A stretch of DNA of 64,000 bases from Pleurocapsa sp. PCC 7327 (GTDB lineage Bacteria; Cyanobacteriota; Cyanobacteriia; Cyanobacteriales; Microcystaceae). Location: NCBI RefSeq assembly GCF_000317025.1, contig NC_019689.1, forward strand, positions 4,821,501-4,885,500. Direction: 5' to 3'. Below, piece after piece: positions 16,131 to 35,949 of the stretch. The notes below the pieces were generated by a model. The model did no database searches, was not told where the DNA came from, and worked only from the letters and a program-made list of their open reading frames with translations. The position numbers and the translations under genes are program-made. Every line of letters begins with the position of its first letter. Positions within the stretch are counted from its first letter, which is position 1.

Positions 16131-19100
16131 ATGGAACGATTGCTCGATAAGCTCGCTCTAGAGCAAGTCATTGAACGTTCTCCGCTGACGATTTCGCCAG
16201 ATATTTCTGTTGTCGATGCGATCGCCTTGCTCGCTCGAACTCAAGTCAGTTGCATTCCGGTAGTAGAAGACTCTAAATTAGTTGGGGTATTTTCGCCCAA
16301 GGATGTGGTTCGCCTCGTCGCTTCTGGAGAGGACTTATCTGGAGTTAGAATCGATCGAGTAATAGAGCAGCCAGTCATGGCGCTAAAATTATCCGACTCC
16401 GATAATCTCTCTACAGCTTTGTCCCTGCTGCACCAGCAGGGGACTTGCTCTTTACCCGTATTAGACGAACGAGAGCGCTTTGTAGGACTGGTGAGTGCCT
16501 GCCAACTCTGGGGAACGCTGAGGCAAAAAATAGAGAGGCAGGTAGACGAACGAACCGACGAGCTTGCCTGGACTAATACGCTATTGCAAAAGCGCGAACG
16601 ACAATTGAAACTTGCCTTGCAAGCCGCTAAACTCGGTTTCTGGGAACTGGATTTAAAAACGGAAGAGCTATCGTCATCGAGCCAATGCAAAGCCAACTTT
16701 GGCTTGCCTCCTGAAGCTGACTTGTCCAACGCCAGACTATTTGAACTCATCCATCCCGACGATCGCGATCGCGTGCGAGAATCTCTCAGGAAGGCGATCG
16801 AGCAACAGACAGATTATGAGGCACAATACCGCAATATCTGGCTCGATGGCAGCATTCATTGGGTCTTAGCCAGAGGTCGCGGCACTTACGAAGCCGACGG
16901 CACTCCGACTTCTATGCTTGGCGTTACCTTCGACATTACGGAACGCAAGCAAACCGAAGAAGCACTGCGAGAAAGCGAGACTCGGTTGCAGAAGTTAGCC
17001 GCCAACCTACCAGGAGTCATTTATACATTTGTCATCTATCCCGATGGCTCGATGAAATTTGAGTACATTAGCGAAGCGTGCCGGGAAATTCAAGAAGTAG
17101 AGCCAGAGGAAGTTCTCAGAAACGCTGCTATTTTGTACGAACAAATTCATCCCGAAGACTTGCAAAAAGTTCTCGCAGCCAATGCCATGAGCGCCCAAAC
17201 CTTAGAACCGTTTGCCTGCGAATGGCGTATCATCACTAAATCGGGAAAACTCAAGTGGGTGCGAGCTATTTCTCGACCGGAACGCCGCGACAACGGGCAG
17301 ACAGTTTGGTACGGTACGCTATTAGATATCAGCGATCGCAAGCTAGTCGAGCAACAGTTGCGCCAGAGCGAAGCGCGTTTTCAAATACTAGCTCGCGCTA
17401 CCAACGATGCCGTCTGGGACTGGAATTTACTAACCAATGAAATCTGGTGGAACGAAGCCGTACAAACGCTCTTTGGTTATTCAAAAGAGCAAGTCGGCAC
17501 CGAGGTGAGTTGGCGATACGAAAATATACATCCAGAAGATAGAGAGAGAATCGTTTCTGAAATTCATGGCATCATCGATCGCGATCGACAGTACTGGTCG
17601 AACGAATATCGCTTCCGACGCGCCGACGGATCTTATGCCGATATCTTCGATCGCGGCTATATCGTGCGCGACAATACGGGCAAACCAGTCCGCATGCTCG
17701 GCGCGATGATGGACATCAGCGATCGCAAACGAGCTGAAGAAGCGCTTCGGCAAAGTGAAGCCACTCTCCACAGCTTCTTTGACAGCGCCCCCACGATGAT
17801 GGGAATTGTCGAACTGCGAGATAACGACATCGTGCATCTCATCGATAACGCAGTGACGGCGCAATTATTTGGCAGAACGCCCGCAGCCATGCAAAATCAG
17901 TTAGATAGCCAACTAGGCATACCGCAAGAACACATCAGCCTGTGGCTCGATCGCTACCGCGAAGCCAAACGTACTGGAATCCCCGTTCGCTTCGAGTACT
18001 TTCACCCCGTTCCCGACGGAGTAAGATGGCTATCGGCTATCGTTTCTGCCATTGCAGGCGGTTCTGAAAGTCATCCGAGATTTGCCTATATTGCCGAGGA
18101 CATTACCGAACGCAAAAGGGCAGAAGCAGCTCTGCGAGAGAGCGAAAAGCGCTTTTACAACGCCTTTGAATATGCCGCCATCGGCATGGCACTGGTAGCG
18201 ATCGACGGTCGCTGGCTTAAAGTGAACCGTGCCTTGTGCGAAATTGTCGGTTACTCGCAAGAGGAATTACTCGCTACTAGCTTTCAGGCGATTACCCATC
18301 CAGAGGATTTAGAAAGCAGCATCGCTTACATGCAGCAACTTCTGGCGGGCGAGATTAACACCTACCAGATCGAGAAGCGTTACCTTCACCGACAAAGGCA
18401 TACTGTTTGGGTTTTGTTAAGCGTGTCTGTCGTGAGAGACGATCGCGGTCAACCTTTATACTTCATCGCGCAGATTCAAGATATCACGGCTCGCAAGCAA
18501 GCAGAAGCCTCGCTTCGGGAGAGCGAAGAACGCTGGCAGTTAGCTATCCGTGGCACTAACGACGGCATCTGGGACTGGAACGTTAAAACCAATGAAGTCT
18601 TTTTTTCACCTCGCTGGAAGGAAATGCTGGGATACGAAGACGGGGAAATTGCCAACCATCTCGATGAATGGTTAAAACGAGTGCATCCCGACGATCTCGG
18701 TTGGGTAACTCAAGCTCTTGAAGATCACTTCAATCAGAAAACCCCTTTTTATATCACCGAACATCGCGTCCGGTGCAAAGATGGGACTTATAAATGGATT
18801 CTCGATCGCGCTCAAGCGTTGTGGGACGAACGAGGTAATGTTGCTCGGATGTCAGGATCTCATACCGATATCACCAATCGCAAGCAAAGAGAAGAACTTT
18901 TAGAAAACATCGCCCGTGGGGTTTCCGCAGAAATTGGCGAAGCCTTCTTCCAGTCATTAGTTAAATATCTCAGCAAAGCCTTAAAGGTCGAATATGCTTT
19001 CATCAGCGAAATCGTCGATCCAGAAAGCAATCTCGCTAGAACGGTTGCCGGCTACAGCGACGGTCGCGCGATCGAGAATTTTGAGTATGCTCTGACTAAT

Positions 19101-20633
19101 AATCCCTGTGGAGATGTTATCGGCAAACAGATCTGCGTCTACCCTCAGAACTTGCAGCAGCAATTTCCCCACAACGAAATCCTTCAACAACTAGGAGCCG
19201 AAAGTTATTTAGGCGTTCCTTTATTTGACTCGTCCGGTCGGACTTTAGGTGGAATCTCCATCCTCAGTCGTCAGCCACTGCGCGACGCTCGATTGATGGA
19301 AGAGACGCTGAAAATCTTTGCCGTTCGTGCTGGGTTGGAACTAGAACGCAGACAGGCAGAAGCCGAATTGGTACGCCAAAATCAACGCTCTCACCTTTTT
19401 TCTGAAATTACGCTAAAAATTCGCCAATCCCTGCAACCCGAAGAAATTCTCCAGACCGCAGTTACCGAAGTACAAAAACTGTTGAGTGCCGATCGCGTTT
19501 TGGTTTTTCGGCTGTGGGACGACGGTTCGGGAACCGTCGTGCAAGAAGCCGTCTTGCCTGATTTCTCCGAGATTCTAGGACAACAAATTTACGACCCCTG
19601 CTTTAGTCGAGATTATCAACAGAAGTATCGTCAAGGAAGGGTAAGCGCGATCGCAGACATTAGAAATGCCGGCATTGAGTCCTGCCACGTCGAGTTGCTC
19701 GAACGATTTGGCGTGAAGGCTAACCTAGTGGTACCGATCCTTCAGTGGGAAAAGTGCTGGGGCTTGCTCATTGCCCACCAATGCGATCGTCCCCGACAGT
19801 GGAGCCGTTTTGAGATCGAGTTGTTACAGTTGTTGGCCAACCAAATTGGCATTGCCCTCGCTCAGGCGCAACTGTTAGAGAGAGAAGTGCGCCAGCGTCA
19901 GGAATTGGCTCGCTCCAACGCCGAATTGCAACAGTTTGCCTACGTGGCTTCCCACGACCTCCAAGAACCCCTGCGGATGGTAACGAGCTATTTGCAACTT
20001 TTGGCAAAACGATACCAAGGCAAGCTCGATGCTAGAGCAGACGAGTTTATTGCCTATGCCGTAGACGGGTCGAACCGAATGAAAACCCTGATCGATGACC
20101 TGTTGAGCTATTCTCGCGTCAGCACTCGCGCTCAACCCTTTGAACTCGTGGATTGCAATGTTATTTTGGAGATGGCGATCGCCAATCTCCAAGTTACTAT
20201 TAACGAGACTGGCACAGCCATTACCCGCGCTCCCTTACCCCAAGTTATGGCCGATGCGACTCAACTGATGCAATTATTTCAAAATCTCCTTAGCAACGCC
20301 ATCAAATTCCGAACCGAAGGCGTTCCCCCACAAATTCACATCGGAGCAGTTAGAAGGCAGGAAGCAGCATCTTCCCCCGCTTCTTCTTCCAAAGAATGGC
20401 TGTTCTGGGTACGCGATAATGGAATAGGCATCGAGCAACAGTATGCCGATCGCATCTTTGCTATCTTCCAGCGCTTGCACGGTCGAGGCAAGTATCCGGG
20501 AACGGGGATCGGACTGGCAATTTGCACAAAGATCGTCGAGCGGCATGGCGGACGCATTTGGGTAGAGTCAGAATCTGGCAAGGGAGCGACTTTTTACTTC
20601 ACTATTCCAGAGCGAACAGGTAATCTATCGTGA
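16131..20633 (+). CDS. Multi-sensor histidine kinase (CBS-PASx6-GAF-cyanobacteriochrome GAF-HisKA-HATPase)
   Basis: A 1500-residue soluble sensor kinase with no membrane helix. Domain order: CBS pair (~14-130), six PAS/PAC units whose ends are marked by IT/ISxRK motifs near residues 268, 400, 531, 659, 785 and 914, a first GAF (~930-1085), a second GAF (~1095-1245), HisKA with phospho-His 1275 ([12 protein letters not shown]), and HATPase with [16 protein letters not shown] and GTGIGLAI. The second GAF has the bilin-binding Cys-His of phytochromes and cyanobacteriochromes (Cys1185 in [11 protein letters not shown]). It also has a DPCF motif (Cys1157) 28 residues earlier, the pattern of DXCF blue/green photoreceptors. 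The next gene overlaps by four bases and is Rcp1-like, so a light-driven phosphorelay is likely. Confidence 0.92.
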
Positions 20634-21076
20634 GCGAGCGAGACTGTAATAAACCAATCGAGATCTTGCTAATAGAGGACAATCCTGGCGATATCGAGCT
20701 AACTAAGATTGCCCTGGAAGATAATAAAATGACCATCAATCTCAGCGTGGTAGAAGATGGTGTAGAGGCACTAAAGTTCTTAAAAAAAGAGGGGAAATAC
20801 GCTAATGTACCTCACCCAGACCTGATCTTACTCGATCTCAACTTGCCTAAAAAAGATGGTCGCGAGGTGCTCGCAGAAATGAAAGCCGATCCAATCCTCA
20901 AACGCATTCCGGTCGTAATTCTCACGACTTCCCAAGCCGAAGAAGATGTCCTGAGAGCTTACAATCTTTGTGCCAACTGCTACATTACCAAACCCGTTGA
21001 CTTCGATCGGTTTGTTAAGATCGTGCGCTCTATCGAAAATTTTTGGTTTACTATCGTCAAATTACCTCCACAATAG
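20630..21076 (+). CDS. Rcp1-like response regulator
   Basis: A stand-alone 148-residue receiver domain. It shows the acidic pair E16-D17, phosphoacceptor D69 (LILLDLNLP), T100 and K121 (ITKPVD). The length and the extended C-terminal helix match Rcp1, the partner of the phytochrome Cph1 in Synechocystis. The GTG start overlaps the stop of the upstream kinase (GTGA), implying translational coupling and a cognate pair. It has no output domain, so it probably passes phosphate on or acts by protein contact. The following hybrid kinase starts 27 bases downstream and could be the next relay step. Confidence 0.92.
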
Positions 21077-21103: not shown

Positions 21104-23716
21104 ATGACCAATGACCAAATCAAAGTTTTGTTAGTAGAAGACAATCCCGGCGATATTCTGCTGTTGCAGGAATTTTTGCGGGATGTCAGTTCGACTCAGT
21201 TTGAGTTAACGCCTGTCGAGAGTCTGGGCGAAGCCTTTTCGTCCCTTGCTCGCCAGAGCTTTGATGTCGTTCTGTTAGATCTCTCCCTGCCGGATAGCCA
21301 GGGATTAGAAACCTTTGTCAAAATCGATCGCGCCTTTCCAATTCTTCCCATCATCGTGCTAACGGGTTTAGACGATGAAACCATCGCCATTCGCGCCATG
21401 CAGGAGGGAGCGCAGGATTATTTGGTCAAAGGACAAGTCGATGGAAACTTGTTGGGGAGAGCGATTCGTTACGCGATCGAACGCAAGCAGGCACAGGAGG
21501 AGCTACGACAGCGGGAACGCCAATTAAGCGCGGTTTTTAATAGCGCTCTCAACGCGATCGTTATTGCCGATGATGAGGGCAGATATATCGATGCCAACCC
21601 ATCTGCCTGCGAGCTGTTTGGCGTTTCGAGAGAAGAATTACTCAATGCGAGAATTGCCGATTTTGCCGAGCCGGGGTATGATTTCGCTCGCGCTTGGCAA
21701 TCGTTCCGAGAGCAAGGACAGATAGCTGGAGAGTTTCGCCTGCGCCGTCGGGATGGCACGGTTCGGGAGGTAGAATTTGCCGCAACGGCTAATTTCCTGC
21801 CCCACCGCCATTTGTCGATTCTGCGAGACATCACCGAGAGCAAAACAGCTGCACTCGCCCTCAAACAGCAGACAGAAACTTTGCAGACGATTTTTGACAA
21901 TATTCCGGTCATGTTAAGCTTCTACGATGCTAACGGTCGAATACGGATGGTCAACAAAGCATTAGAAAAAACCTTGGGCTGGTCGTCAGAAGAACTGCAA
22001 CAGATAGATCTGATAGCCGAATGCTATCCCGACCCGGATTATCGCGCCTCAGTTATAAAATCAATGCAAACTGCCGACGGTAGCTGGAGGGATTTTCACA
22101 CCAGAAATCGCGCGGGGGAAATTCTAGAAACTTCTTGGGCAAACGTTCGCTTGCCGAATGGCTTTAATGTGGGCATCGGTCAAGATATCACCGAGCGCAA
22201 GCGTGCCGAACAGAAAATCTACGAACAAGCCGCACTTCTAGAGATTACTACCAATGCCATTCTCGTGCGCGATCGCGCTAACCGAATTATCTTTTGGAAC
22301 AAAGGTGCCGAACAACTTTATGGCTGGAGTGCCCAAGAAGCCATCGGGAAAAACGCCACCGACCTACTCTACAAAGAAGCTACGTCCCAAATCGACTTAG
22401 CTCTACAAACTGTCATCGAGAAAGGTGCGTGGCAGGGCGAATTGCATAAAGTCACCAAAGCCGGCAAGGAAGTCATCGTCGAAAGCCGTTGGACGTTGGT
22501 GCGCGACGAAGCCGGACAACCCAAATCAATTTTGACCGTCGATACCGACATTACCGAGAAGAAGTCCTTAGAATCTCAGATTCTGCGCGCCCAACGTCTA
22601 GAAAGCCTCGGTACCCTGGCTAGCGGGATTGCCCACGACCTCAACAACATTCTCACTCCGATTCTGACCACCGCCCAACTCCTGCCGCTCAAACTGCCCG
22701 ATTTAGACGAGCGCAGTTTGCAATTGCTGAAATTACTCGAAGACAGCGCCAAGCGCGGCGCAGATTTGGTCAAACAAATTTTGTCGTTTGCACGCGGCGT
22801 TGAAGGCAAACGTGCCGTAGTACAAGTCGGGCACCTGTTATGGGAAGTGGTCAAGATTGCCAAGAGTACCTTTCCTAAATCTATAGAAATCGAAGCCGAT
22901 ATTCCAACCCACGAACTGGGAACGGTTTTGGCAGATGCTACGCACCTGCATCAGGTATTTATGAACTTAATTGTTAATGCGCGAGATGCCATGCCCGATG
23001 GCGGCAAGCTAACGATTACTGCTAAAAATGTCGTTATAGACGAAAACTATGCGAAAAAAAATCTTTATGCAAAAGCCGGACGCTATCTCGCGATCGCGAT
23101 CGCAGATACGGGGGTGGGAATGTCTCCCGAAGTCCTCGATCGCATTTTTGAACCGTTTTTTACGACTAAAGAAGTCGGAAAAGGAACGGGATTAGGTCTG
23201 TCAACGACTTTAGGAATCATCAAGGGTTATGGCGGCTTTATTACCGTTCGCAGCCAGGTGGGAGAAGGCAGTGAATTTAGAGTCTATCTGCCGCAAATTG
23301 ACGACGTGCAAAAGCTAGCAGAGGCCGAGTCTCAATTGCCCAGAGGACGGGGAGAATTGATTTTAGTAGTAGATGACGAAGCCGCCGTGCAAGAGATTGC
23401 GCAAACCTCCCTAGAAGCTCACGGCTACAAGGTCCTTATCGCTGGCGACGGAATCGAAGCGATCGCCCTCTACGCACGGCATAAAGATGAAATTAAAGCC
23501 GTCTTGATGGATATCATGATGCCGTCGATGGATGGCGCGACAGCTATCCGAACCTTGCGCAAGTTCGATCCCCATGTCAAAGTTATTGCTACTAGCGGTC
23601 TCGTTTCTAATGAAAAGATTATTAAAGCTTCTGGTGCAAGCATCCAGGCATTTCTATCAAAACCCTACACCTTGAAGGATTTATTAAACGTGCTGCACGA
23701 GGTGATTAATCGTTAA
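21104..23716 (+). CDS. Hybrid sensor histidine kinase (REC-PASx3-HisKA-HATPase-REC)
   Basis: An 870-residue soluble hybrid kinase. An N-terminal receiver (~5-125) has an intact phosphoacceptor in VVLLDLSLPDSQG. Three PAS units (~140-245, ~258-370, ~378-495) follow. The dimerisation domain has phospho-His 511 in SGIAHDLNNILTPI, of the NtrB-like HDLNN type. The HATPase domain shows LIVNARDAMPDGG, DTGVGMSP and GKGTGLGLST. A C-terminal receiver (~750-868) has VLMDIMMPSMDG and LSKPYT. Receivers at both ends suit input from another kinase (probably through the Rcp1-like gene 27 bases upstream) and output to an unknown phosphotransfer protein. It belongs to the same operon as the two upstream genes. 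Confidence 0.93.
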   Translation: MTNDQIKVLLVEDNPGDILLLQEFLRDVSSTQFELTPVESLGEAFSSLARQSFDVVLLDLSLPDSQGLETFVKIDRAFPILPIIVLTGLDDETIAIRAMQEGAQDYLVKGQVDGNLLGRAIRYAIERKQAQEELRQRERQLSAVFNSALNAIVIADDEGRYIDANPSACELFGVSREELLNARIADFAEPGYDFARAWQSFREQGQIAGEFRLRRRDGTVREVEFAATANFLPHRHLSILRDITESKTAALALKQQTETLQTIFDNIPVMLSFYDANGRIRMVNKALEKTLGWSSEELQQIDLIAECYPDPDYRASVIKSMQTADGSWRDFHTRNRAGEILETSWANVRLPNGFNVGIGQDITERKRAEQKIYEQAALLEITTNAILVRDRANRIIFWNKGAEQLYGWSAQEAIGKNATDLLYKEATSQIDLALQTVIEKGAWQGELHKVTKAGKEVIVESRWTLVRDEAGQPKSILTVDTDITEKKSLESQILRAQRLESLGTLASGIAHDLNNILTPILTTAQLLPLKLPDLDERSLQLLKLLEDSAKRGADLVKQILSFARGVEGKRAVVQVGHLLWEVVKIAKSTFPKSIEIEADIPTHELGTVLADATHLHQVFMNLIVNARDAMPDGGKLTITAKNVVIDENYAKKNLYAKAGRYLAIAIADTGVGMSPEVLDRIFEPFFTTKEVGKGTGLGLSTTLGIIKGYGGFITVRSQVGEGSEFRVYLPQIDDVQKLAEAESQLPRGRGELILVVDDEAAVQEIAQTSLEAHGYKVLIAGDGIEAIALYARHKDEIKAVLMDIMMPSMDGATAIRTLRKFDPHVKVIATSGLVSNEKIIKASGASIQAFLSKPYTLKDLLNVLHEVINR

Positions 23717-28923: not shown

Positions 28924-31617
<2,694 letters not shown>

Positions 31618-31884: not shown

Positions 31885-34800
31885 TTAAACAAACGAGAAC
31901 GCTGGAGAGCCAAGGTTCAAATCGGTCGGAACATTTTGCAAAATGCTAATAAGTTCTCCTCTGGCTGCATCTCCAGGATCGTAGATCAAGGCTGCATTGA
32001 TACTGCCGCTGCTAGTCGTGAAAAAGTCCAGATCGTACTGCGCGATCGCGCCATGCAGTTGAATAATATCTTGACTGGAATCGAAATCGCTAATTAATGC
32101 ATAGTCAGACTCGCCAGTGGTCAGCGGATCGCCATCGCTGTAGAAAACGCGACTCGCATCTCCCAATACAAAAGTATCGCTATCTGAAAAGCCAGTTAAG
32201 ACATCCAACTCGCCAGCGCCATAACTAGCAGACGGATCGACTCCAACTAAGCGATCGCTGCCAGCGCCACCATCGAGGGAATCATTGCTCGCTCCGCCTG
32301 TAAGACTATCTGCGCCAGCTTCGCCCACCAGGCTATCCTCGCCTTTACCACCAAAGATAAGATCGTTGTCGGTACCGCCGTTGAGGGAGTCTTTTCCTTC
32401 TCCTCCATCGAGAGTATCCTGACCTGCATTGCCAAGAATGGTATCGTCGCCAGATTCGCCTAAGAGGCGATCGTTGCCAGCCCCGCCCTCGATCGAGTCG
32501 TTGCCGTCGCCACCGAGAATATTATCCCGTCCTCCGTTGCCTTTGAGGAGATCGTCGCCGTCGTTGCCAAAGATTCTGTCTCTGCCAGCGCCTCCTTCGA
32601 CTGTATCGTTTCCTTCGTCAGCAGTAATTAGATCGTCGCCGTCGCCGCCGAAGATCTCATCCCTGCCAGCCAGCGCTTGTATGATATCATTACCGCCCAA
32701 ACCGGAAATGCGATCGCGACGGTTAGTGCCAGTTATGACATCATCGCCTTCAGTGCCGATAATTTCATTGGGAGGACCGAGTTCGCTGAGAGCGTTGAAG
32801 GCATTGAGCCGACCGCCGGAGACAGTTTTTCCTTCTAGAACAGTGAGGGGATCGACAGTCGTCAGAAGCAGTTCTTTAACTTCTTGTGCGCTGAGGTTTG
32901 GGTCTTCCGACCAAAGCAAGCTGGCAACCCCCGATACGTGAGGCGTAGCCATTGATGTCCCATCATAGGATGCATATCCCCCTCCAGGAACAGTGCTAAG
33001 GACGCTCACTCCCGGAGCGCCTAGATCGACGGAAGTAGCTCCGTAATTGGAAAACCAAGCCAATCGGTCGCTAGCATCAGTAGCTGCGACCGAAATGATG
33101 TTATCGAGGTCGTAACTGGCAGGATAAGCCGGGTTTGGACCATCATTGTCATTAGTTCCGTTTCCTGCTGCCGCAATAAACAACTGCCCTGCTTTACCTG
33201 CGGCAGCGATCGCGTCGTACAAACCTTGGGAGAAGAAATAACCTCCCCAGCTATTGCTGGTCAGTTTCACTCCCATGAGGGTAGAATATTCTACTGCCTC
33301 AATTGCATCGAAGTCAGTTCCGCTTCCTCCAGAATCTAAAAACTTGATCGCCATAATCTTGGCGTTCCAATTGACACCAGTCACGCCAGTATTATTATTC
33401 CCTTCAGCAGCAATTGTCCCTGCGACGTGAGTGCCGTGGAAAAAGTCATCAAAGGGATCGCCATCTTCGTTCACAAAGTCATAGCCGTAGTAATCATCTA
33501 CATAGCCATTGCCATCGTCGTCAACGCCATTGTTGGGAGTTTCTCCCGGATTAGTCCACATGTTGTCGTTGAGATCCGGATGATTATAATCCACTCCCGT
33601 ATCGATTACTCCCACCACTACATCGCTTCCGGTTTGCCGATCCCAGGCTTCTGGCGCATCGATATCGGCATCGGGGGTACCACCCGTTTGTCCGGTATTG
33701 TTTAAACCCCAGAGTTCGCTAAAACGCGGATCGTTAGGAATAGTAGCCGTAGTAGAGCGGATATAGTTAGGTTCGATATATTCGATCGCGGGATCTGCAC
33801 TAAAACTTGCGATCGCGTCTCTGACGCTCGTTCCCTCTTCTAACTTCCAACGCTGAATTCCCAGCGTCTTGGTGGTTTCTAGAACTGTAGCTCCTAGCCT
33901 TTCTTGGAGAAGGCTAATTTTGTTTGCTTCTGTGCCAGCTTTGAGTTTAACGATCAGCTCGCCGGAGGCATAGTCTTTTCCTTCTGCCAAACCAGCTAGT
34001 CTTGCTAATGGGCTAGTGTTCTCTGGAATAGGACTTTCATCGGTGTTATCCGTTGTTTGTTGGGCGGATAGCGATGCGGTAGACGCAGATGAAGCACCAG
34101 ATCCTTGCAGGATCGCGATCGTTTCTCCTCTCGCTTCTACCCCTGGGTCGTAAATCATGGCTACATCTACCCGTCCCGAAGGAGTGGTAAAGTAGTCTAA
34201 TTTATACAGGTCGTCTGAGCCTTTGCGTTGCAGGGAATCTTGGCTGGGGTCGTAGTCTGTAATTAAAGTATAGTCAGACTCGCCCGTCGTCAGCGGATCG
34301 CCATCATCGTAGTAAACGCGATCGTTATCGCCAAGGGCAAAGGTGTCGTATCCCGTACCGCCAGAGAGAGTATCGATCTCGCCCGCACCAAAACCAACTT
34401 TCGCGCCGGAGACTACCGCGAGGTTAATTCCCACTAAATTATCATTTCCGGCTCCTCCATCGAGGCTGTCGTTATCGAATCCTCCCACCAAGGTATCAGC
34501 CTCAGTGCCGCCGCTGAGACTGTCACTGCCGCTGCCTCCTAAGATGCGATCGCTTCCCGCATTGCCAGAGAGCGAGTCAGTGCCATCTCCCCCGTCGATG
34601 GTGTCGTCGCCGCCTTGACCGACGATGGTATCATTGCCTGCTTGTCCGAGCAAACGATCTCGACCAGCGCCGCCATCAATGGAATCGTTGTCCTCGCCGC
34701 CGAGAATGTCATCGCGACCCTCATTACCGATTAAAATGTCATTGCCGCCATTACCGGAGATGGTATCATTACCGCTCCCTCCTTCCGCTTTGTCTTTGCC

Positions 34801-35949
34801 ATCTCCAGCAGTAATCAGGTCATTGCCCGAACCGCCTAAAATTTGGTCGTTGCCAGCTAGACCTTGGAGAACGTCATTGCCGCCCAAACCAGAAATGGTA
34901 TCGGGTCCTCTGCTGCCAGTTAATACGTCATCGCCCTCAGTGCCGATGAGTTCGATACCAGGCGGAATTTCATAGAGATAAATTTCTCGATCGGTGCCGT
35001 CATAGCTGCTCCAGACTACTTTATTACCAGAAATTTGCGGGTCGTAGTCGTAGGTATTGTTATTGGTCAGTTGGATGACATCGCCGTCGTAGAAATAGAT
35101 TTCGCTGTCAGCATTGTCGGGATAACCATACCAAACTACCTTATCGCCCGAAATTTGCGGGCTGTAATCGTAGAAATTATTGTCAGTTAGTTGAATGGTC
35201 TGGTTGCCATCGTAGAGGTAGATTTCACTGTCATTGAAGTCTGGATAACCGCTCCAAACCACTTTATTGCCCGAAATCTGTGGGCTGTAGTCGGAGAAAT
35301 TGTTGTCGGTTAATTGGACGATTTTGCTGCCGTCATAGAGGTAGATTTCGTCGTCGTTACCGTCATAGCCACTCCAAACTACCTTATCGCCATCTATCTG
35401 TGGACTGTAATCGTAGGTATTGTTATTGGTTAGTTGGATGGTCTTGCTACCGTCATAGAGGTAGATTTCGTCGTCGTTGCCGTCATAACCGCTCCAAACC
35501 ACTTTATTGCCCGAAATCTGTGGACTGTAGTCAGAGAAGTTATTATCGGTTAATTGGACGATTTTGCTGCCGTCGTAGAAGTAGATTTCGCTGTCAGAGT
35601 AGTCGGGAGGATAGGCGTACCAAACTACTTTATTGCCATCTATCTGCGGACTGTAATCGTAGAGATTGTTGTCGGTCAGCCGAGTAGTCTTATTACCATC
35701 ATAAAGGTATATTTCATCGTCGTTGCCGTCAGAGCCGCTCCAGACTACATTGTTGCCTGAAATCTGCGGACCGTAGTCGTAGAAGTTATTATTGGTCAGT
35801 TGGGTAATCTTGCTGCCATCGTAGAAGTAAATTTCACTGTCATTAAAGTCGGGATAACCAGTCCAAACTACTTTGTTGCCATCTATTCGCGGACCGTAGT
35901 CATCAAAGTTGTTGTTGGTTAATTGGATGATGTCATTATTGTTAGCCAT
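31885..35949 (-). CDS. RTX subtilase: S8 peptidase with N-terminal propeller-like repeats
   Basis: A 1354-residue predicted secreted protease. Residues 7-330 are eight ~40-residue repeats (QLTxNNxYDYxPQIxGxKVVW...DxEIYxYDG), likely a beta-propeller. Residues ~331-615 are RTX repeats (GGxGNDxI) plus a C-terminal-type module. A protease pro-region (~660-730, ELIVKLKAGTEANK) precedes the S8 domain (~738-1055) with catalytic Asp783 (VIDTGVD), His838 (HGTHVAGT), oxyanion Asn930 and Ser999 (GTSMATPH). Residues ~1062-1354 are a second RTX block with the same terminal module. There is no Sec signal, so export is probably by a type I system, with Ca2+-driven folding outside. The gene is flanked by long non-coding regions. 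Confidence 0.92.
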   Translation of the reverse strand: MANNNDIIQLTNNNFDDYGPRIDGNKVVWTGYPDFNDSEIYFYDGSKITQLTNNNFYDYGPQISGNNVVWSGSDGNDDEIYLYDGNKTTRLTDNNLYDYSPQIDGNKVVWYAYPPDYSDSEIYFYDGSKIVQLTDNNFSDYSPQISGNKVVWSGYDGNDDEIYLYDGSKTIQLTNNNTYDYSPQIDGDKVVWSGYDGNDDEIYLYDGSKIVQLTDNNFSDYSPQISGNKVVWSGYPDFNDSEIYLYDGNQTIQLTDNNFYDYSPQISGDKVVWYGYPDNADSEIYFYDGDVIQLTNNNTYDYDPQISGNKVVWSSYDGTDREIYLYEIPPGIELIGTEGDDVLTGSRGPDTISGLGGNDVLQGLAGNDQILGGSGNDLITAGDGKDKAEGGSGNDTISGNGGNDILIGNEGRDDILGGEDNDSIDGGAGRDRLLGQAGNDTIVGQGGDDTIDGGDGTDSLSGNAGSDRILGGSGSDSLSGGTEADTLVGGFDNDSLDGGAGNDNLVGINLAVVSGAKVGFGAGEIDTLSGGTGYDTFALGDNDRVYYDDGDPLTTGESDYTLITDYDPSQDSLQRKGSDDLYKLDYFTTPSGRVDVAMIYDPGVEARGETIAILQGSGASSASTASLSAQQTTDNTDESPIPENTSPLARLAGLAEGKDYASGELIVKLKAGTEANKISLLQERLGATVLETTKTLGIQRWKLEEGTSVRDAIASFSADPAIEYIEPNYIRSTTATIPNDPRFSELWGLNNTGQTGGTPDADIDAPEAWDRQTGSDVVVGVIDTGVDYNHPDLNDNMWTNPGETPNNGVDDDGNGYVDDYYGYDFVNEDGDPFDDFFHGTHVAGTIAAEGNNNTGVTGVNWNAKIMAIKFLDSGGSGTDFDAIEAVEYSTLMGVKLTSNSWGGYFFSQGLYDAIAAAGKAGQLFIAAAGNGTNDNDGPNPAYPASYDLDNIISVAATDASDRLAWFSNYGATSVDLGAPGVSVLSTVPGGGYASYDGTSMATPHVSGVASLLWSEDPNLSAQEVKELLLTTVDPLTVLEGKTVSGGRLNAFNALSELGPPNEIIGTEGDDVITGTNRRDRISGLGGNDIIQALAGRDEIFGGDGDDLITADEGNDTVEGGAGRDRIFGNDGDDLLKGNGGRDNILGGDGNDSIEGGAGNDRLLGESGDDTILGNAGQDTLDGGEGKDSLNGGTDNDLIFGGKGEDSLVGEAGADSLTGGASNDSLDGGAGSDRLVGVDPSASYGAGELDVLTGFSDSDTFVLGDASRVFYSDGDPLTTGESDYALISDFDSSQDIIQLHGAIAQYDLDFFTTSSGSINAALIYDPGDAARGELISILQNVPTDLNLGSPAFSFV
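34960..35931 (-). repeat. Eight tandem ~120-bp coding repeats
   Basis: These encode the eight 40-42-residue propeller units of the subtilase. Several units (for example residues 130-169 and 210-250) are nearly identical in protein and closely alike in DNA, which suggests recent unit duplication or gene conversion. Confidence 0.9.

Follow-up and report, generated by a model that had tools for sequence, protein, structure and literature searches.

Does the multidomain histidine kinase encoded in a 64,000-nucleotide stretch of Pleurocapsa sp. PCC 7327 (NC_019689.1, positions 4,821,501 to 4,885,500; hereafter the window, to which coordinates refer) carry a working photosensor, and if so, from which lineage does it descend? 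The original prediction took the second of its two GAF domains (GAF2) for a DXCF-type cyanobacteriochrome resembling the blue/green receptor TePixJ. The motif class is borne out by the sequence motif, the fold prediction, conservation and the supply of bilin, but the implied kinship with TePixJ is contradicted by the tree. We put at roughly 0.8 the probability that GAF2 is a working dual-Cys cyanobacteriochrome, from a DXCF branch within the clade containing the green/red sensor RcaE, and that it drives the kinase. The observations behind this reading are the sequence itself, the predicted fold, the phylogeny, the gene order and the bilin genes of the genome.

GAF2 is a candidate dual-Cys cyanobacteriochrome

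The gene (16131 to 20633, plus strand, as are all parts described here) starts with ATG and encodes 1500 amino acids matching the Pfam families CBS, PAS, GAF, HisKA and HATPase_c, in agreement with the CBS/PAS/GAF kinase originally proposed. A CBS pair (residues 1 to 135, 16131 to 16535; Pfam CBS, 60.8 bits), of which a single stretch, residues 12 to 64, passes alone, is followed by a linker and six PAS units (residues 136 to 940, 16536 to 18950), recognized as six stretches of NCBIfam TIGR00229. Pfam GAF then matches two stretches. The first, GAF1 (residues 941 to 1078, 18951 to 19364), lacks a cysteine at the bilin site, its sole cysteines, 993 and 1002, preceding the canonical region. GAF2 occupies residues 1079 to 1250 (19365 to 19880), and the C-terminal histidine kinase residues 1251 to 1500 (19881 to 20633; Pfam HisKA and HATPase_c), with the HisKA His1275, the N box at 1385 and the G boxes at 1426 and 1456 all in place.

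GAF2 carries a DPCF motif (residues 1155 to 1158, 19593 to 19604), with Cys1157 (codon 19599 to 19601) as the second cysteine, and a putative canonical bilin-attachment site, Cys1185 followed by His1186 (19683 to 19688). As predicted, the two cysteines lie 28 residues apart, the same spacing as seen in the printed stretch of TePixJ, where they are presumably Cys494 and Cys522 (numbering taken from the original prediction). The further 10-residue stretch and the LLIAHQC motif that had been cited as typical of such domains were likewise found in GAF2. A search against PDB sequences gave 70 matches at E ≤ 0.001, the best being RcaE (7.5e-54); among the best 60 of the 70, the top entries were RcaE, the dual-sensor kinase 6oap (which we take to be PPHK), miRFP670nano and TePixJ, the others being further cyanobacteriochrome and phytochrome entries. 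The AlphaFold2 model of GAF2 (protein only, from an alignment of 7 rows) had a pLDDT of 86.5 and a pTM of 0.83. In Foldseek it superimposed on the blue form of TePixJ (4glq) with an rmsd of 1.2 Å over 141 columns; the E-value ranking was headed by 6oaq/6oap and RcaE 8k9o, with rmsds for RcaE of 12.5 Å (8k9o) and 2.0 to 2.1 Å (7ckv).

The genome itself contains 37 cyanobacteriochrome-like GAF matches, 30 of which were aligned (the 7 lacking an assigned locus were left out). Both cysteines occupy the same columns in 22 of these 30 domains, i.e., in 21 besides GAF2, making GAF2 one of many dual-Cys GAFs in this organism. This recurrence, together with the 70 PDB matches, argues that the motif did not arise by chance. 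The idea of a single photosensor hence applies to the 1500-residue protein but not to the genome. Two open frames elsewhere in the chromosome (G000:C1:70496-73075 and 76760-79402, of 1293 and 1210 residues) encode five dual-Cys GAFs each. As for bilin supply, the genome encodes two heme oxygenases, PcyA (368.8 bits against a cut-off of 206) and the reductases for both phycoerythrobilin steps.

Among related loci, both GAF2 cysteines are conserved in L045, L046, L048, L051 and L052, the motif reading DPCL instead of DPCF in the last two. Some members of the clade have lost the second cysteine (L112, L122, L134 and L207), and in L134 the canonical one as well. The close cyanobacterial relative L048 lies on a 39118-base contig whose title reads Candidatus Gracilibacteria (JAAUUT010000045.1); L040 is also on a 39118-base contig (G003:C21), from a genome assigned to the window's genus, and the Gracilibacteria title looks like a binning error. 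The GAF reading frame of this relative is interrupted around query residue 38.

Loss of bilin binding, leaving a degenerate GAF domain whose cysteines serve redox sensing or nothing, has a precedent in the same genome: a DPC-containing domain, own_L021 (G000:C1:481353-481847, motif DPCI), has Asp in place of the canonical cysteine and is perhaps a sensor without its former bilin anchor. We nevertheless regard such a fate for GAF2 as very unlikely, given that both cysteines and the histidine are present and conserved in orthologues and that GAF2 is more conserved than the GAF1, PAS and CBS parts (identities to L046 of 76% for GAF2, 70% for the kinase, 63% for GAF1, 47% for CBS and 45%, with 263 gapped positions, for the linker/PAS region). 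Moreover, GAF2 clusters with RcaE and not among GAF domains lacking a chromophore. By every feature amenable to testing on sequence and model, GAF2 thus looks like a dual-Cys cyanobacteriochrome and a rather typical representative of an established class of photoreceptors.

GAF2 groups with RcaE and not with TePixJ

For the phylogeny, near domains were sought in 58 relatives, 10 of which gave a match at E ≤ 1e-60; the 31 genomes belonging to other genera of the family gave none at this threshold. An order-level search gave matches at E ≤ 1e-58 in 77 of 291 genomes, part of which were fetched, and the remaining rows were named loci, own-genome domains and PDB references. A search of the genus Nostoc for domains of the clade found a match in all 13 genomes.

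In the main tree, built from 72 rows with the motif columns (1155 to 1158, 1185 to 1186 and 1198) taken out, GAF2 and RcaE shared a clade of 51 rows (support 100/99), and TePixJ fell in a separate clade of 13 rows together with 12 own-genome domains (100/98). The former clade owes its size to the selection of the nearest rows for similarity to the query. That RcaE and TePixJ fall apart is independent of clade size. The GAF2/RcaE clade was recovered under changed sampling (100/100), where a tree 6.2 log units better, missed by the free search, adds three triad-bearing rows from genome G141 to it. A quick tree that retained the motif columns gave an RcaE-containing clade of 102 rows (support 99), TePixJ being placed without resolution among the remainder. 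Constraining GAF2 and its four nearest rows into the TePixJ clade was rejected (AU p 0.0035), as was a single clade of all 47 DXCF rows of the H/Y-N type (AU p 0.006), p values that are somewhat flattering since the row sets were named after the first tree had been viewed.

These results bear directly on the possibility that GAF2 is a TePixJ-type blue/green receptor converting phycocyanobilin to phycoviolobilin. The two domains agree in the DPCF motif, the Cys-His pair, the Asn column and the 28-residue spacing, and the GAF2 model lies close to the TePixJ fold (see above). Yet TePixJ belongs to a separate lineage, as the two rejected groupings indicate, and its PDB entries (4glq, 3vv4) are titled methyl-accepting chemotaxis protein whereas the GAF2 protein is a kinase. 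We therefore consider a TePixJ-type receptor rather unlikely. It overlaps with the account favored here in color and differs from it in descent; even outside the TePixJ lineage, the photochemistry of GAF2 could be blue/green.

RcaE, besides being the best PDB match and a clade mate, resembles the GAF2 protein in having a histidine kinase output (title of 8k9o). It differs in having Val at the position of the second cysteine, Leu at that of His1186 and Lys at that of Asn1198. In RcaE and CcaS, Leu replaces the His beside the Cys (PMC9415938).

By descent, as read from the tree, GAF2 belongs to a DXCF branch of the RcaE-containing clade, outside the TePixJ lineage. This placement fits the view that the DXCF type is spread over several lineages and is believed to be of early origin (PMC11284453). 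The literature covered by our search contained no description of a DXCF domain within the RcaE clade.

The kinase gene overlaps that of an Rcp1-type regulator

Overlapping the kinase gene by 4 bp is a gene for a 148-residue Rcp1-type response regulator (20630 to 21076, plus strand; Pfam Response_reg), whose PDB matches are led by 5te9 (7.1e-52) and include RcpA (1.6e-44) and Rcp1 (4e-42). With its H, N and G boxes and this adjacent regulator, the protein is a histidine kinase with an Rcp-type partner. A hybrid kinase of 870 residues follows (21104 to 23716, plus strand; REC-PAS-HisKA-HATPase-REC by Pfam), with 97% identity to its counterpart in L045 and 80% in L046, and in both of these loci the kinase, regulator and hybrid kinase genes stand in identical succession. 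As in the Cph1/Rcp1-type pairs, the partner is a regulator matching RcpA and Rcp1, but the sensor here is a cyanobacteriochrome GAF and the protein has no phytochrome PHY domain in Pfam. Farther along the window, at a distance of some 5 kb from the gene for the hybrid kinase, lies a gene for an ApcE-like protein with a phycobilisome domain and three linker domains (28927 to 31611, minus strand), and beyond it one for a 1354-residue protein that combines RTX-type repeats with a subtilase domain (31888 to 35949, minus strand).

Downstream, 28 of the 44 related loci examined carry a regulator, or 26 of 41 without the duplicates L034, L035 and L040, with at least 72% identity in 15 of the 26. No regulator was seen in the other 15 distinct loci within the stretch covered, mostly about 1.5 kb (5.5 kb in L048). 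In six of seven foreign regions (L168, L169, L170, L171, L172 and L174) the kinase is followed by a frame of 141 to 148 residues and then one of 712 to 958 residues, the domains of these two later genes having been checked by Pfam in L168 alone; in L173 the gene order differs, with a 584-residue frame lying between. The CBS domain, present by Pfam in L046 and L168, had no match at E ≤ 1e-5 in L170 and L171, and the CBS/PAS front thus varies among relatives. Taken with the least-conserved status of the CBS and PAS parts, the recurrence of the regulator in 26 of 41 loci identifies photosensor, kinase and regulator as the steadier unit, to which a variable front is joined.

Color tuning and proposed photocycle

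RcaE-type green/red sensors use a protochromic triad of acid, Leu and Lys, presumably Glu217, Leu249 and Lys261 in RcaE. Since GAF2 lies in the RcaE clade (100/99), it might be supposed to be protochromic too, with Cys1157 idle. However, GAF2 has P1156, H1186 and N1198 where the acid, Leu and Lys would be expected. Across 155 domains, an acid at the X position of the motif was present in 33 of 34 domains with the Lys and in 0 of 121 without it (21 of 22 and 0 of 115 in the first domain set), an association that rests on counts over related sequences because a sign test on independent pairs, with 2 starred pairs, cannot reach significance. A protochromic GAF2 is accordingly highly improbable, the least probable of the alternatives considered. 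Lacking the triad residues, with the acid tied to Lys, GAF2 should instead work via its second cysteine.

Among two-Cys sensors, Oscil6304_2705 was reportedly described by Sato in 2019 as a blue/orange one. It is probably L150, whose D71, C73, C101 and H102 match the reported numbering, and which shares DxCF and the Cys-His pair with GAF2 but is a stand-alone 164-residue GAF, distant in the tree. Considered as a close lineage mate of GAF2, L150 was set aside, as it falls elsewhere with a branch length of 2.2; the color of GAF2 is therefore not fixed by it. A review describes Oscil6304_2705 as a blue/orange two-Cys sensor and gives the color for Tlr0924 as red when it carries phycocyanobilin, green when it carries phycoviolobilin (PMC10296107). 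DXCF domains able to form phycoviolobilin have products that are green, teal, yellow or orange (PMC5240096).

By analogy with known dual-Cys sensors, from which the chromophore, color, photocycle and signaling suggested here are drawn, Cys1185 would hold a bilin, most likely phycocyanobilin. As long as this is in its dark 15Z state, C10 would also be linked to Cys1157, so that the dark form most likely absorbs violet/blue light. Illumination would rotate the D-ring (15Z to 15E) and open the Cys1157 bond, giving a form absorbing at longer wavelengths, green/teal if the protein turns phycocyanobilin into phycoviolobilin and orange/red otherwise. The signal would then run through the C-terminal helix of the GAF domain to HisKA and alter phosphorylation of His1275, next that of the Rcp1-type regulator and perhaps that of the hybrid kinase too, with the CBS and PAS units contributing other inputs.

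Domains combining a second cysteine with the protochromic triad

Fifteen of the 155 domains have both the second Cys and the full triad (acid, Leu and Lys), a proportion that is not a frequency because these domains were sought by likeness. One of them is from this genome (own_L025, G000:C1:1874479-1875024), and the others are L096, L098, L114, L123, L047, L131, L132, L182, L183, L186, L193, L197, L200 and L202. Eight, own_L025 included, come from the first set, and seven more were found with L096 as the query. Some share a genus, g167 supplying three and g99 two. Most have a DDCF or DECF motif. In these domains an acid precedes the second Cys, Leu follows the canonical one, and Lys lies 13 residues beyond the latter. 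As to whether the triad groups arose separately, a single clade of RcaE-type and DxCF-type triad rows was not rejected (AU p 0.43), nor was one of all 20 triad rows of the changed-sampling tree (p 0.505). The literature covered by our search contained no description of such mixed domains.

Tentatively, and with the balance of our judgment somewhat against it, the DXCF branch to which GAF2 belongs may adjoin a switch between thiol-based and proton-based tuning within the RcaE clade, the mixed domains perhaps being living intermediates in which Cys ligation and deprotonation of the bilin act together.

Implications

Neither the DXCF motif nor the 28-residue spacing reveals the lineage of a domain, and its color may thus not be readable from them either. 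The operon would serve as a ready example of an Rcp1-type regulator receiving light input. If the proposal on the mixed domains is true, the step between two-Cys and protochromic mechanisms would be directly testable, and if these domains bind bilin, they would form a series, found in nature, that leads from two-Cys tuning to the protochromic kind.
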